Positions 6,225 through 11,776 of a stretch of 37,249 bases of DNA are shown here, in pieces. How positions within the stretch are numbered: the stretch's first letter is position 1; the number at the start of each line of letters is the position of its first letter. The notes beneath the pieces are model-generated. The model searched no databases. It worked only from the letters and a program-made list of their open reading frames with translations, and was not told the origin of the DNA. The translations under genes were made by a program, and so were the position numbers. Origin of the DNA: a virus; IMG/VR virus record IMGVR_UViG_3300037042_001387, positions 1 through 37,249 of that record. One strand, 5' to 3'.

Positions 6225-6503
6225 ATGACATTAGAAGAAGCAAAACAGCACTTTAAGACATATTATAAGATGGCAAAAACTTTAAATATAACGCCACAAG
6301 CAATACAGTTTTGGCGCAAACAGGGTTATATACCATACCTGCACCAACTCAATCTTGAAAGGTTAACAGAAGGGGAATTATTGGCGGACGAAGAAAACAC
6401 GCACAGCAAATTTTATAAAAGCAGATTAAATAAAAACAATAACAATAACACAGGGAGTAAAGATGATAAGAGCATTAGCGTGGGCATTGAGACAGCATCC
6501 TGA
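6225..6503 (+). CDS. Cro-like helix-turn-helix regulator
   Basis: 92 residues with a strong GGAGG eight bases upstream. Residues ~3-50 form a small helix-turn-helix domain like P22 Cro/YdaS proteins: EEAKQHFKTYYKMAKTLNIT, then PQAIQFWRKQGYIP, then LNLERLTEGEL. The C-terminal tail is hydrophilic and Asn-rich (a run of four Asn). It probably represses the divergent early promoters directly upstream. No partner cI-type repressor gene was found in the window, so classical lysogeny control is not supported. The 3' end overlaps the next gene by 41 bases, suggesting coupled expression. Confidence 0.75.
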   Translation: MTLEEAKQHFKTYYKMAKTLNITPQAIQFWRKQGYIPYLHQLNLERLTEGELLADEENTHSKFYKSRLNKNNNNNTGSKDDKSISVGIETAS

Positions 6504-6732
6504 CACGATTACAACACATGAAAAGTTAATTTTAATTGGATTGGCTGACATGAGTGATGATGAGCAAATAGTGCGTGTATCAAGCATTAAACTATCAAAG
6601 TTCACTGGCCTTGATGGTGATGCTGTAACTGAAGCAATAGGCAATTTATCAGCGAAAGGATTTATTAAGTGTCTTGATGATGACTTAGACACTGATTATA
6701 TGCAGTCTTACAAGCTGATAGTGACACGATGA
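6463..6732 (+). CDS. Winged-helix (HTH_36-like) DNA-binding protein
   Basis: 89 residues, starting at ATG 6463 behind GGGAG within the end of the Cro-like gene. The sequence MIRALAWALRQH, EKLILIGLADMSDD, RVSSIKLSKFTGLDGDAVTE and GNLSAKGFIK follows the order of winged-helix domains in phage replication proteins and regulators. There is no C-terminal extension, so it is only the DNA-binding part. It might assist the initiator or regulate early genes. Its stop overlaps the next start (ATGA). Confidence is good for the fold and low for the exact role. Confidence 0.7.
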   Translation: MIRALAWALRQHPDTITTHEKLILIGLADMSDDEQIVRVSSIKLSKFTGLDGDAVTEAIGNLSAKGFIKCLDDDLDTDYMQSYKLIVTR

Positions 6733-7037: not shown

Positions 7038-7204
7038 TATAATTTGTACTGTAAGATGAGGTTAGTTAAGAGTTCGCAGCTCCTAGCTAACCTTGGCTTA
7101 GGCCATTGAATACTTTAACTAGAAGTTTGCAAGCAGTTAAAGTATGGGTAAATTATAACCATACTATTCTTGTCTGTAAACCTCCAGTTAAAGTTTTTTT
7201 TAAC
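7038..7204 (+). promoter_or_regulatory. Candidate promoter and multi-hairpin structured leader RNA
   Basis: TATAAT at 7038-7043 could start a transcript, but the -35 is poor. Downstream are: hairpin I (7060-7072/7080-7092, 13 positions with one G-U and one A-C); a small TGGC/GCCA hairpin (7094-7105); hairpin III (ATACTTTAACT 7110-7120/AGTTAAAGTAT 7135-7145, perfect 11 bp); and hairpin IV (AGTATGG 7141-7147/CCATACT 7159-7165). III and IV share bases 7141-7145, so they exclude each other. A second AGTTAAAGT copy (7186-7194) runs into seven to eight Ts and can fold as GTTAAA/TTTAAC. The loops of I and III both contain AGTTYGCA. This looks like a regulatory leader or small RNA. Confidence 0.55.
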
Positions 7205-7220
7205 AATAGGAGAAAACAAA

Positions 7221-7808
7221 ATGATTTATTCTTTTGAAATAATGCATTCAGAAAAAAACTATAAATTTTATTTTAATGGCAGCACCGTTTTTGCACCAAT
7301 TATTTCTAAAAACGAAGACCTTAATTGTTTCGATTTAGAAGAAATAAAAGGATTTTTAGAAGATAAAAGTTTTTTTGCATTAGCTTTTTTCGCAAGCAAT
7401 CCTTATCTTCATGAAGATGCGCACTTTGCCTTAAAGGATTGGATAAAATATAGCTCAAAAGAAGATTTAGACCAAGCAGAGCTGCTTGCTAAAATACTAA
7501 TCAACTCAAAATGGGAAGGCGGTGCAACAAATAAAGCTCAATTATTTTTAAATATATTGAATGGTAACTTGCCTGATTGGATGAAAGAAAAAGAAAAAAC
7601 ACTTTTAGAAAAAGATAATGATAAATTCTTAAGAAAAAAATCTAAATTAAAATTGGAGTATATGCTTGAGCATGGCAAAAAATGCGAATTTTGTAATAAA
7701 ACATTTGAGCCGATTAAATTATGCTTGGTAAAAAAAGATAAACAAAAAATTGGTTATTCGTTTGATAGGGTGTTATTAATATGCAAGTCTTGTAATTCAA
7801 AAAGATAG
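7221..7808 (+). CDS. Uncharacterised protein with C-terminal treble-clef/HNH-like zinc finger
   Basis: 195 residues, starting at ATG 7221 behind AGGAGA (7208-7213); an in-frame TTG at 7170 would fall within the leader. The N-terminal part looks like a mixed alpha/beta domain with no family I recognise. Residues ~151-195 contain Cys155-x2-Cys158 and Cys188-x2-Cys191 in the setting CEFCNKTFEP and LLICKSCNSKR. That spacing and the ending resemble HNH nucleases, but the catalytic His pair expected after the first knuckle is absent. It could be a degenerate HNH or a pure nucleic-acid-binding finger. The structured leader upstream suggests post-transcriptional control. Confidence 0.6.
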   Translation: MIYSFEIMHSEKNYKFYFNGSTVFAPIISKNEDLNCFDLEEIKGFLEDKSFFALAFFASNPYLHEDAHFALKDWIKYSSKEDLDQAELLAKILINSKWEGGATNKAQLFLNILNGNLPDWMKEKEKTLLEKDNDKFLRKKSKLKLEYMLEHGKKCEFCNKTFEPIKLCLVKKDKQKIGYSFDRVLLICKSCNSKR

Positions 7809-7833
7809 GTAAATTGTAAAAATACAGCTTCCG

Positions 7834-7860
7834 TGCTTTCCCGACTGCAATCGGGGTGCA
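7834..7860 (+). terminator. Intercistronic hairpin before the replication initiator
   Basis: CCCGA/TCGGG (7840-7844 and 7851-7855) with a 6-base loop, extended by TGC/GCA (7834-7836/7858-7860) across an internal loop. No T tract follows; instead an unstructured CAACAACAATAACAAC stretch leads to the initiator's Shine-Dalgarno. It is more likely a processing or translation-insulating hairpin than a full terminator. Confidence 0.4.
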
Positions 7861-7895
7861 TCTTACAACAACAATAACAACAAAAGGATTTTACC

Positions 7896-8690
7896 ATGTC
7901 TGGACAAAAAAGCAACACAACACAATCAAAAAAATTACATAATCCTAAATCTCATGCTCCGGCAGTTTTTATTCCATGTTGGTTAATTCAAGTTCCTCAC
8001 AAACTTCTGTCATTTGGCGCAAAACTTCTCTACGGAAGATTGGCACAATGGAGCAATACTAATGGTGATGTTTTTAGGTCTGCGCCTCAGTTATCCAAGG
8101 AATTGGGAATAGGAGTTCGCACTATAGAAAAATTTATCAAAGAATTAAAAAATGTTGAATTAATTGAAACTTATCATCTTCAAGCTGGTGGACAAAATTA
8201 CTTTAGATTTTTTGACCATGAATGGATGCATGATAAATTAGTTGAAGAATTAGACCCCCCGAACAACCGTGCGGTACCCCCCGAACAACCGTGCGGTACC
8301 CCCCCGAACAACCGTGCGGACATAAATATAAAAGAAATAAAAGAAATAAAAGATATTAGTGAATCTGTCGATTCACCCATCGTTAATGATATTGTTAATC
8401 AGGTACTAGATGCTTATCACGAAACGTTGCCTAATATGCCTAAAGTTATGCACGTAACGACGGAGCTGCGTAGAGCTATAAAAAAAATGGAAGCAGAGTG
8501 GCCAAGTTTACGCAATAAAGTTTTAACAAAAGAGGTTGCAAGTAGCTATTTTCAGGGTTTAAAAGAACTTACACCTTTTTTGTTACAGCCTTACAAAACT
8601 AAAGAGGGTAACATTAGGCGCAATCGTTTAATTAATTTGATTCGATTAGATACTATTAAAAAGTTTTACAACGGTGATTATGATGTTTGA
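7896..8690 (+). CDS. Replication initiator, lambda-O-like organisation
   Basis: 264 residues; AAAGGA lies eight bases before ATG 7896. Residues ~20-110 form a winged-helix domain (FIPCWLIQVPHKLLSFGAKL, SAPQLSKELGIGVRTIEKFI, RFFDHEWMHDKL). Residues ~119-143 are a low-complexity linker encoded by three GC-rich DNA repeats and then AT-rich repeats. Residues ~150-264 form a helical domain likely to contact the helicase. The arrangement, with a DNA-binding N-terminus, iterons inside the gene and a C-terminal loader part followed by a DnaB-like gene, matches lambda O and similar proteins. It should open the origin and recruit the helicase. The end overlaps the helicase start. Confidence 0.82.
   Translation: MSGQKSNTTQSKKLHNPKSHAPAVFIPCWLIQVPHKLLSFGAKLLYGRLAQWSNTNGDVFRSAPQLSKELGIGVRTIEKFIKELKNVELIETYHLQAGGQNYFRFFDHEWMHDKLVEELDPPNNRAVPPEQPCGTPPNNRADINIKEIKEIKDISESVDSPIVNDIVNQVLDAYHETLPNMPKVMHVTTELRRAIKKMEAEWPSLRNKVLTKEVASSYFQGLKELTPFLLQPYKTKEGNIRRNRLINLIRLDTIKKFYNGDYDV
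8255..8356. other. ori: Candidate origin of replication inside the initiator gene
   Basis: Three copies of CCCCCCGAACAACCGTGCGG lie at 8255-8274, 8277-8296 and 8300-8319 (period 22 then 23 bases). They are followed at once by three 9-bp AT-rich units AAAAGAAAT/AAAAGAAAT/AAAAGATAT (8330-8356), a probable unwinding element. The 22-base period is not a multiple of three, so the middle repeat is read in another frame, and an extra C before the third restores frame. Conservation is therefore at DNA level, as expected for initiator-binding iterons. No experimental evidence is available. Confidence 0.8.
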
Positions 8691-9984
8691 CTTAGAAAAA
8701 AAACTACTTATATGCTTACTAGCCGATTATGATAATCAGTATACAAAAAAAATCATACTGTCAGTCAAGAGCGATTATTTTTATAATCCAACGCATAGAG
8801 ATATTTTCAAGCTGATATTAAAACAACATGATACAAACCAGCCAACTAACTTTATTGATTTTTTGTGCGCAATACCAAAAAACGATAATGATATGTATAC
8901 GACTGTTAACAATTACTTGATTGACAGCACCAACAATGTCTATATTTTTTATGATGATGACTTAGACAAACTAAGTGCAAGTTATTACTTGCGCATTAAA
9001 TGCGAATCATTAACAAAGTTGCTACATGAAGCAAAAAATAGCACCAATCCCGAAGACACATTAAAAGGTCTTAGCACTAACCTGGCGACTATAGCGCAGT
9101 TGTCGGATGTTAAAACACAAGGATTGACACTTGCGCAAGCAGCAGAAGCGCATCACTACGATAAAACTAAGCAAGATAAAATTAAAACAATACCGCAGTT
9201 AGATAACCTAGTAGGTGGATTCAACCCAAGTTTAGCTACTTTTGCAGCTGGCGCAGGCGTGGGCAAAACTTTTTTTGCTATTTATCTTTTTGATAATATT
9301 TTGCGTAATTATACTGATTGCCAAGGTTTGTTTTTTAGTTTAGAGATGACTTATAAAGATATCATTGAGAGACAAAAAGCAGTTAGAGCTAACAAAGTTT
9401 ATAGACGCTTATCAGAGCAAGAAATGGATACTGTAACTCTAGATTTAATGCAAGCAAAAGGCAGGATTTATGACATATCAATCGCACAAAATTGCACTGA
9501 TATCGATTATATTTGCACGACAGCAAAACTAGAGCATGCGCAAACAAAAGTTAAGGTAATTGTTGTTGACTATATGACTGCAATTACTACTACTAAACGT
9601 TTTGAACGCGATGATTTAAAGTATAAGTATATTGCACAAAGACTTGCACAGTTAGCGGTAGAGTTAAATTGTCTTGTAATAAATCTGATACACATCAATC
9701 GTAATAGTAATTTACGCTCTATTGATGACCGCTGCCCGAATGCTGGTGATGAAATCGCAAGCCAAGGTAGCTATATCGTATCTGGTTATTGGTTTGGACT
9801 TGATAGACCGTATTTACACACCAATTATGACAAAGACAAGAATCGTTTTCTTTTAGCTTTAAGAAAAAATCGGTTTGGGACGTTTAGCGGGATATTAGAG
9901 ACATGTTTCAATGCCGGACTGTTTGGCGCACCTTTTGTTGAGTATGCGCCAGTAGAAAAGAAATCAAAAGATGATTATGGTTGA
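8683..9984 (+). CDS. DnaB-like replicative helicase
   Basis: 433 residues from ATG 8683; ATG 8680 and GTG 8674 are possible alternatives, and the choice is not certain. An N-terminal helical DnaB-N-like region (FDLEKKLLICLLADYD) is followed by the RecA-like core. Walker A AGAGVGKT is at residues ~189-196, FFSLEM follows, and VIVVDYMTAI is the Walker B strand. CLVINLIHINRN and LRKNRFG resemble DnaB motifs 3-4. It is expected to form a hexamer and unwind DNA ahead of the host polymerase. It lies directly after the initiator/origin gene and overlaps its end, as in lambda-like O-P modules, but the phage supplies the helicase itself. The 3' end overlaps the convergent gene by ten bases. Confidence 0.9.
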   Translation: MFDLEKKLLICLLADYDNQYTKKIILSVKSDYFYNPTHRDIFKLILKQHDTNQPTNFIDFLCAIPKNDNDMYTTVNNYLIDSTNNVYIFYDDDLDKLSASYYLRIKCESLTKLLHEAKNSTNPEDTLKGLSTNLATIAQLSDVKTQGLTLAQAAEAHHYDKTKQDKIKTIPQLDNLVGGFNPSLATFAAGAGVGKTFFAIYLFDNILRNYTDCQGLFFSLEMTYKDIIERQKAVRANKVYRRLSEQEMDTVTLDLMQAKGRIYDISIAQNCTDIDYICTTAKLEHAQTKVKVIVVDYMTAITTTKRFERDDLKYKYIAQRLAQLAVELNCLVINLIHINRNSNLRSIDDRCPNAGDEIASQGSYIVSGYWFGLDRPYLHTNYDKDKNRFLLALRKNRFGTFSGILETCFNAGLFGAPFVEYAPVEKKSKDDYG

Positions 9985-11544: not shown

Positions 11545-11596
11545 GGTAAAATTATAAATATCTTTTGATTGTTTCGTGTCCGTTTTGCTCTTATTT

Positions 11597-11776
11597 CGAC
11601 CCCGACCTCGACCTCAACCACGACCTCAACAACGACCCCGACCTCGACCTCAACCACGACATCGACCTCAACCACGACCTCGACCTCAACAACGACCTCG
11701 ACCTCGACCCTGACCCCGACCTCGACCCTGACCCCGACCCTGACCCCGACCTCGACCTCGACCTCGACATCGACCG
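11597..11776. repeat. Hexanucleotide tandem repeat, exactly 30 units
   Basis: 180 bases built from 6-base units in constant phase: mostly CGACCT and CGACCC, with TGACCC, CAACCA, CAACAA and CGACAT variants, ending CGACCG. The tract is GC-rich in an AT-rich genome and G-poor on the plus strand except at unit position 2. It would encode Asp-x dipeptides or Ser/Thr or Arg/Ser runs in different frames, but none of these frames has a ribosome site. It lies in the gap after the gene at 11803-12087 and is probably a non-coding repeat. Confidence 0.9.

Follow-up and report, generated by a model that had tools for sequence, protein, structure and literature searches.

A theta replication origin of the lambda/P22 type very probably lies inside the initiator gene of a 37,249-bp phage genome, the entire IMG/VR virus record IMGVR_UViG_3300037042_001387 (hereafter, the window). 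The layout resembles those of lambda and P22: three iterons separate the segments for the DNA-binding and C-terminal parts, followed by an AT-rich tract of about 40 bp, an inverted repeat and, as in P22, the helicase gene. An earlier note on this DNA had proposed a lambda-like origin within the initiator gene, with a repeat sequence of its own, and the gene identities, the iterons, the AT tract and comparison with relatives all support this proposal. Its claim of novelty for the frame-shifted repeat fails, and the site is a further good example of an established design, not a new one.

The genome has a GC content of 37.9% and carries genes for RecT, terminase, portal and major head protein, as recognized by Pfam and PHROG profile matches. 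The initiator gene (7896–8690, plus strand; 264 aa) matches HTH_36 (PF13730) with a score of 26.1 bits, above the curated cutoff of 25 (E 7e-6); its best PHROG match is phrog_270, replication initiation protein (E 4e-11), and matches to the O-like families phrog_345 (E 8e-7) and phrog_678 (E 2e-4) are weaker. A Pfam search up to E 1 revealed no RepA_N domain, and sequence searches of the PDB and of plasmids with the initiator protein returned no match. The protein comprises an N-terminal arm, a winged helix, the iteron-encoded linker and a helical C-terminal domain. In the AlphaFold2 model, which is of low confidence overall (mean pLDDT 54.8) and from which the domain layout alone was taken, helices and a wing form the putative DNA-binding domain (residues 28–105, approximately; 7977–8210, plus strand; HTH_36 match at 38–85) with pLDDT of about 60–83, compared to 25–35 in the linker; residues 120–158, which cover the iteron-encoded residues, are predicted to be disordered, and the C-terminal part helical. 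The model has no PDB fold match at E<=0.001; the top matches, N-terminal domains of RepA_N plasmid initiators with 4pql, 4pta and 5kbj among them, are weak (E about 1e-3 to 1e-2). The conserved C-terminal domain (8357–8687, plus strand), presumed to recruit the helicase, is followed by the gene for a phage DnaB-type replicative helicase (8683–9984, plus strand; DnaB_C E 4e-22, DnaB N-terminal domain E 7e-10, phrog_19 E 1.5e-42), whose start at 8683 overlaps the initiator gene end at 8690.

Three copies of the 20-mer CCCCCCGAACAACCGTGCGG, with 0 mismatches, occupy positions 8255–8274, 8277–8296 and 8300–8319 of the plus strand, their starts 22 and 23 bp apart; counted from the initiator ATG at 7896, they lie in frames 2, 0 and 2 and encode, in order, PPNNRA, PPEQPC and PPNNRA. 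The exact repeats, their periods and the displaced middle copy are as the earlier note described them, and so is the GC richness of the repeat in an AT-rich genome (70.8% GC in the array vs 37.9%). The array is the second-strongest tandem locus of the record (Tandem Repeats Finder score 123), and 15-mers present in three tandem copies spaced 15–30 bp number six in the real sequence and zero in 50 dinucleotide shuffles. With up to two mismatches allowed, the 37,249-bp record contains no further copy of the 20-mer, and no exact match occurs among the viral contigs searched; a search with the iteron junction pattern gave a single match, in an unrelated GC-rich phage (L011), which was set aside as chance. 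A dyad within a single window iteron does not exceed chance (10/16 positions, p 0.26), whereas the lambda iteron does so in the identical test (p 0.0015). The strongest tandem array of the record lies elsewhere, at 11596–11775 between minus-strand genes: its 12/18-bp TCGACC repeats are open in several frames on both strands, reading DLDLNHDLDL on the plus strand and RSRSGSGS on the minus strand.

Directly 3' of the iterons is an AT-rich tract (8320–8358, plus strand), the presumed duplex-unwinding element. The first 37 bp after the iterons (8320–8356) have 10.8% GC, and the AT-rich units reported earlier at this place were recovered by Tandem Repeats Finder as 2.9 copies of ATAAAAGAA at 8328–8353. 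The least stable 38-mer of the initiator reading frame is 8322–8359, and among the 37,212 of the genome, the one at 8320–8357 is about the 33rd least stable. GC skew tracks the direction of the genes and points to no origin in the record.

The 3' end of the tract adjoins an element absent from the earlier account, the perfect inverted repeat GTGAATC-TGTC-GATTCAC (8359–8376; p 0.005–0.015 against shuffles), which begins 39 bp past the last iteron, an offset that, like those below, is uncertain by a few bases at the iteron end. The p values given for the individual phages measure rarity in shuffles of each phage's own region, 0.015 for the window. Among the two distinct relatives compared, both metagenomic virus contigs, L020 has GTGAATC-TGAC-GATTCAC at 38 bp (p 0.032), not independent of the window repeat, and L006 has GCGTTTC-ATCC-GAAACGC at 40 bp (p 0.006), with the arm sequence changed and the pairing complete. 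In lambda, GTCAGAGAATTC-TGGC-GAATCCTCTGAC, with one mismatch, lies at 43 bp (p <0.001) and presumably corresponds to the 28-bp palindrome of the lambda origin; in P22, CCCCCTT and AAGGGGG flank an 8-nt loop at 42 bp (p 0.002). The element is not universal, since no significant inverted repeat occurs at the corresponding place in the Streptococcus phages Javan94 and Javan637. The window repeat also scores as a minus-strand terminator-like site because the AT tract provides a T run, and it may act in replication or in stopping leftward transcripts. An inverted repeat beside lambda-type origins has been little discussed; five phages support it, with the position kept and the pairing kept despite sequence change.

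The anatomy of the lambda origin has been described previously (PMC5043065; PMC7466680). As in the window, lambda ori is located in gene O, with iterons between the DNA-binding and C-terminal parts and an adjacent AT-rich tract of about 40 bp (PMC5043065); the inverted repeat with a 4-nt loop and the occurrence of iterons in several reading frames are also common to both. Unlike lambda, the window has three iterons of unrelated sequence, not four, a single one of which has no clear dyad; its initiator is related to O only at a weak profile level and is followed by a phage DnaB in place of the loader P. P22 resembles the window in that initiator gene 18 precedes an overlapping gene 12 for the phage's own DnaB, and iterons, AT-rich direct repeat and then inverted repeat all lie inside the initiator gene, but its iteron, AT-unit and inverted-repeat sequences differ, as does the iteron spacing (20, 24). 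The HTH_36-type initiators of Javan94 and Javan637 have an N-terminal domain alignable to that of the window (30–31% identity) and intragenic iterons at the corresponding place, followed by AT-rich direct repeats; the iteron sequence, the C-terminal domain and the downstream genes are different. Outside phages, the staphylococcal plasmids pSK41 and pPR9, from Firmicutes, also encode a winged-helix initiator with the origin inside its gene, although the pSK41 protein belongs to RepA_N, the domain undetected in the window initiator.

Comparison of these phages removes the grounds for regarding the shifted frame as an unusual dual-coding solution, or the 22/23 alternation as unusual in itself. 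The annotated lambda iterons start at 39034, 39054, 39078 and 39101 (spacing 20, 24, 23) and fall in frames 0, 2, 2 and 1 of O; the P22 iterons (20, 24) fall in frames 0, 2 and 2; those of Javan94 and Javan637, of sequence unrelated to the window's, are spaced 23, 22, 23 in frames 2, 1, 2 and 1; the L006 iterons, spaced 22, 22, occupy three different frames; and the L020 iterons, spaced 21, 21, are all in one frame. Across these sequences, the iteron reading frame is neither kept nor avoided, and this indifference is in keeping with a linker in which almost any sequence is tolerated. The idea that a single added C restores the frame holds insofar as 22+23=45 bp, or 15 codons, but an open reading frame demands no set spacing between copies. 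In lambdoid phages of the Stx type, O is 13 residues (39 bp) longer owing to two additional iterons (PMC7466680); together with the window and Javan spacings (22+23=45), these few cases suggest that iterons are gained in frame-preserving pairs, although the 20+24 spacing of both lambda and P22 departs from a 45-bp pair. In Javan637 (L015 1770–1859), a unit of two iterons has been duplicated exactly, over 45 bp, which captures array growth at a frame-preserving step.

Recent tandem duplication, neutral in a linker that tolerates it and with no role in replication, would account for copies that are 100% identical including the spacer and common to no relative, and for a 45-bp step that preserves the frame, as does the exact duplication in Javan637. 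Such an origin of the repeats is nevertheless quite improbable: independent, unrelated arrays of three or four copies occupy the same site beside an AT tract in L020, L006, Javan94, Javan637, lambda and P22, and the inverted repeat is near-identically placed in five phages. Recent duplication could still explain part of the perfect identity of the window iterons, because no close relative has them. For the same reason, the earlier assertion that selection acts on the DNA and not on the peptide is plausible, given copies identical at the DNA level, yet falls short of proof. It is highly improbable that the repeats are instead an operator through which the initiator or helicase gene is autoregulated: binding of a winged helix to its own gene is conceivable, and plasmid iterons often serve both autoregulation and the origin, but the repeats are located mid-gene and joined to a strongly destabilised tract, and promoter-like sites in the region are at chance level (4 found, 4.3 expected). 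That the repeat is kept for a proline-rich peptide is scarcely credible, for although copies 1 and 3 both encode PPNNRA with a regular 15-aa period, the middle copy reads PPEQPC in another frame, the linker is predicted to be disordered, relatives have entirely different linker peptides, and pSK41 Rep still functions in trans after deletion of its ori-encoded linker, which is thus dispensable as protein (PMC5703833).

The origin reading is supported by the two relatives, in which gene order and the initiator C-terminal domain are as in the window (L006 stands for a group with the near-copies L001/L005; L007 and L008 are identical). C-terminal identity to the window is 55% in L020 and 49.5% in L006, compared to N-terminal identities of 25% and 19%. 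At the iteron site, L006 has three copies of a AGGGCACATCGATATGT-type unit and L020 three copies of a GTGCATGA..TGCATGACC unit. Nucleotide matches between the window and L020 cover 7823–7945, the leader and the N-terminal arm, and resume from 8354, with none between; therefore, as judged from this alignment, the exchanged unit comprises the winged helix, the iterons and the AT tract, between a conserved leader and the inverted repeat. This exchange was absent from the earlier account, which had named relatives that keep the peptide but lose the DNA repeat as contrary evidence; no such pattern is seen, and L006 and L020 change both together, their linker peptides being wholly unlike that of the window. 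A published parallel exists in the staphylococcal plasmid pPR9, in which the N-terminal domain and the origin have been exchanged and the incoming domain is also PF13730 (PMC5703833). A broader proposal, that members of this phage group swap the origin half (winged helix, iterons and AT tract) as a self-contained cassette with the leader and the inverted repeat as fixed borders, and that the 22/23 alternation, present in unrelated phages, reflects iterons working and duplicating in 45-bp (15-codon) pairs, is tentative and, taken whole, rather unlikely; if true, 45-bp pairs would keep helical spacing and reading frame at once.

A scan of genome contigs with the whole initiator protein found no relative, and one with a DnaB alignment found distant DnaB homologues only (23–26% identity; L023–L035), not the phage module. 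The initiator N-terminal alignment is too diverged for a pattern scan, and scanning with lambda O returned 80 near-identical loci, which had no comparative value. Gingerbug-type actinophage initiators were rejected as comparators: they have mainly the C-terminal part in common, and arrays are rare among them.

The leader upstream of the initiator start (7814–7869, plus strand) contains a hairpin, CCCGA-CTGCAA-TCGGG, inside an outer TTGTAA/TTACAA pair. It is 82% identical to L006 (1954–2010) over 57 bp and homologous to L020 (about 1651–1700) within a 75% match that continues into the N-terminal arm; its predicted fold is weak (z -1.0 in the window, -2.0 in L006), and a search of Rfam gave no match. 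The leader is conserved although the downstream protein domain is unrelated between the phages, and it may regulate as an RNA, be associated with the origin or mark a border of recombination. Farther upstream, all three phages encode a stand-alone 89-aa winged-helix protein (window 6463–6732, L006 1534–1803, L020 961–1230) that resembles the N-terminal domain of O-like initiators (phrog_391, phrog_1032) and may be a regulator or the remnant of a different initiator. The gene directly upstream of the window initiator (7170–7808) encodes a 212-aa protein with a zinc-finger-like C-terminus and a weak match to endonuclease VII (phrog_1035, E 0.01); in L006 and L020, no such protein was seen in the ORF lists for the interval from the small winged-helix gene to the initiator.

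At a lambda/P22-type origin of this composition, the winged-helix N-terminal domain would bind the three iterons, which are spaced about two helical turns apart. By analogy to lambda, binding would bend and strain the DNA, opening the adjacent 39-bp AT-rich tract. The inverted repeat closes the origin at its 3' end, a position it also has in lambda and P22. The conserved C-terminal domain would then recruit the phage's own DnaB, encoded by the next gene in an arrangement evident from the gene order. The iteron-encoded segment, predicted to be disordered, would serve as a tether whose sequence matters little, as demonstrated for the analogous pSK41 Rep, and the iterons can therefore sit in any frame. 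The comparison of the three phages shows that winged helix, iterons and AT tract pass between phages as one piece.

An uncultured phage thus gains a precisely located candidate origin with a matching initiator and helicase. The window, L020 and L006 together constitute a natural experiment, in which the helicase side is kept and the DNA-binding domain and the iterons are replaced together; each domain would therefore predict its own iteron.
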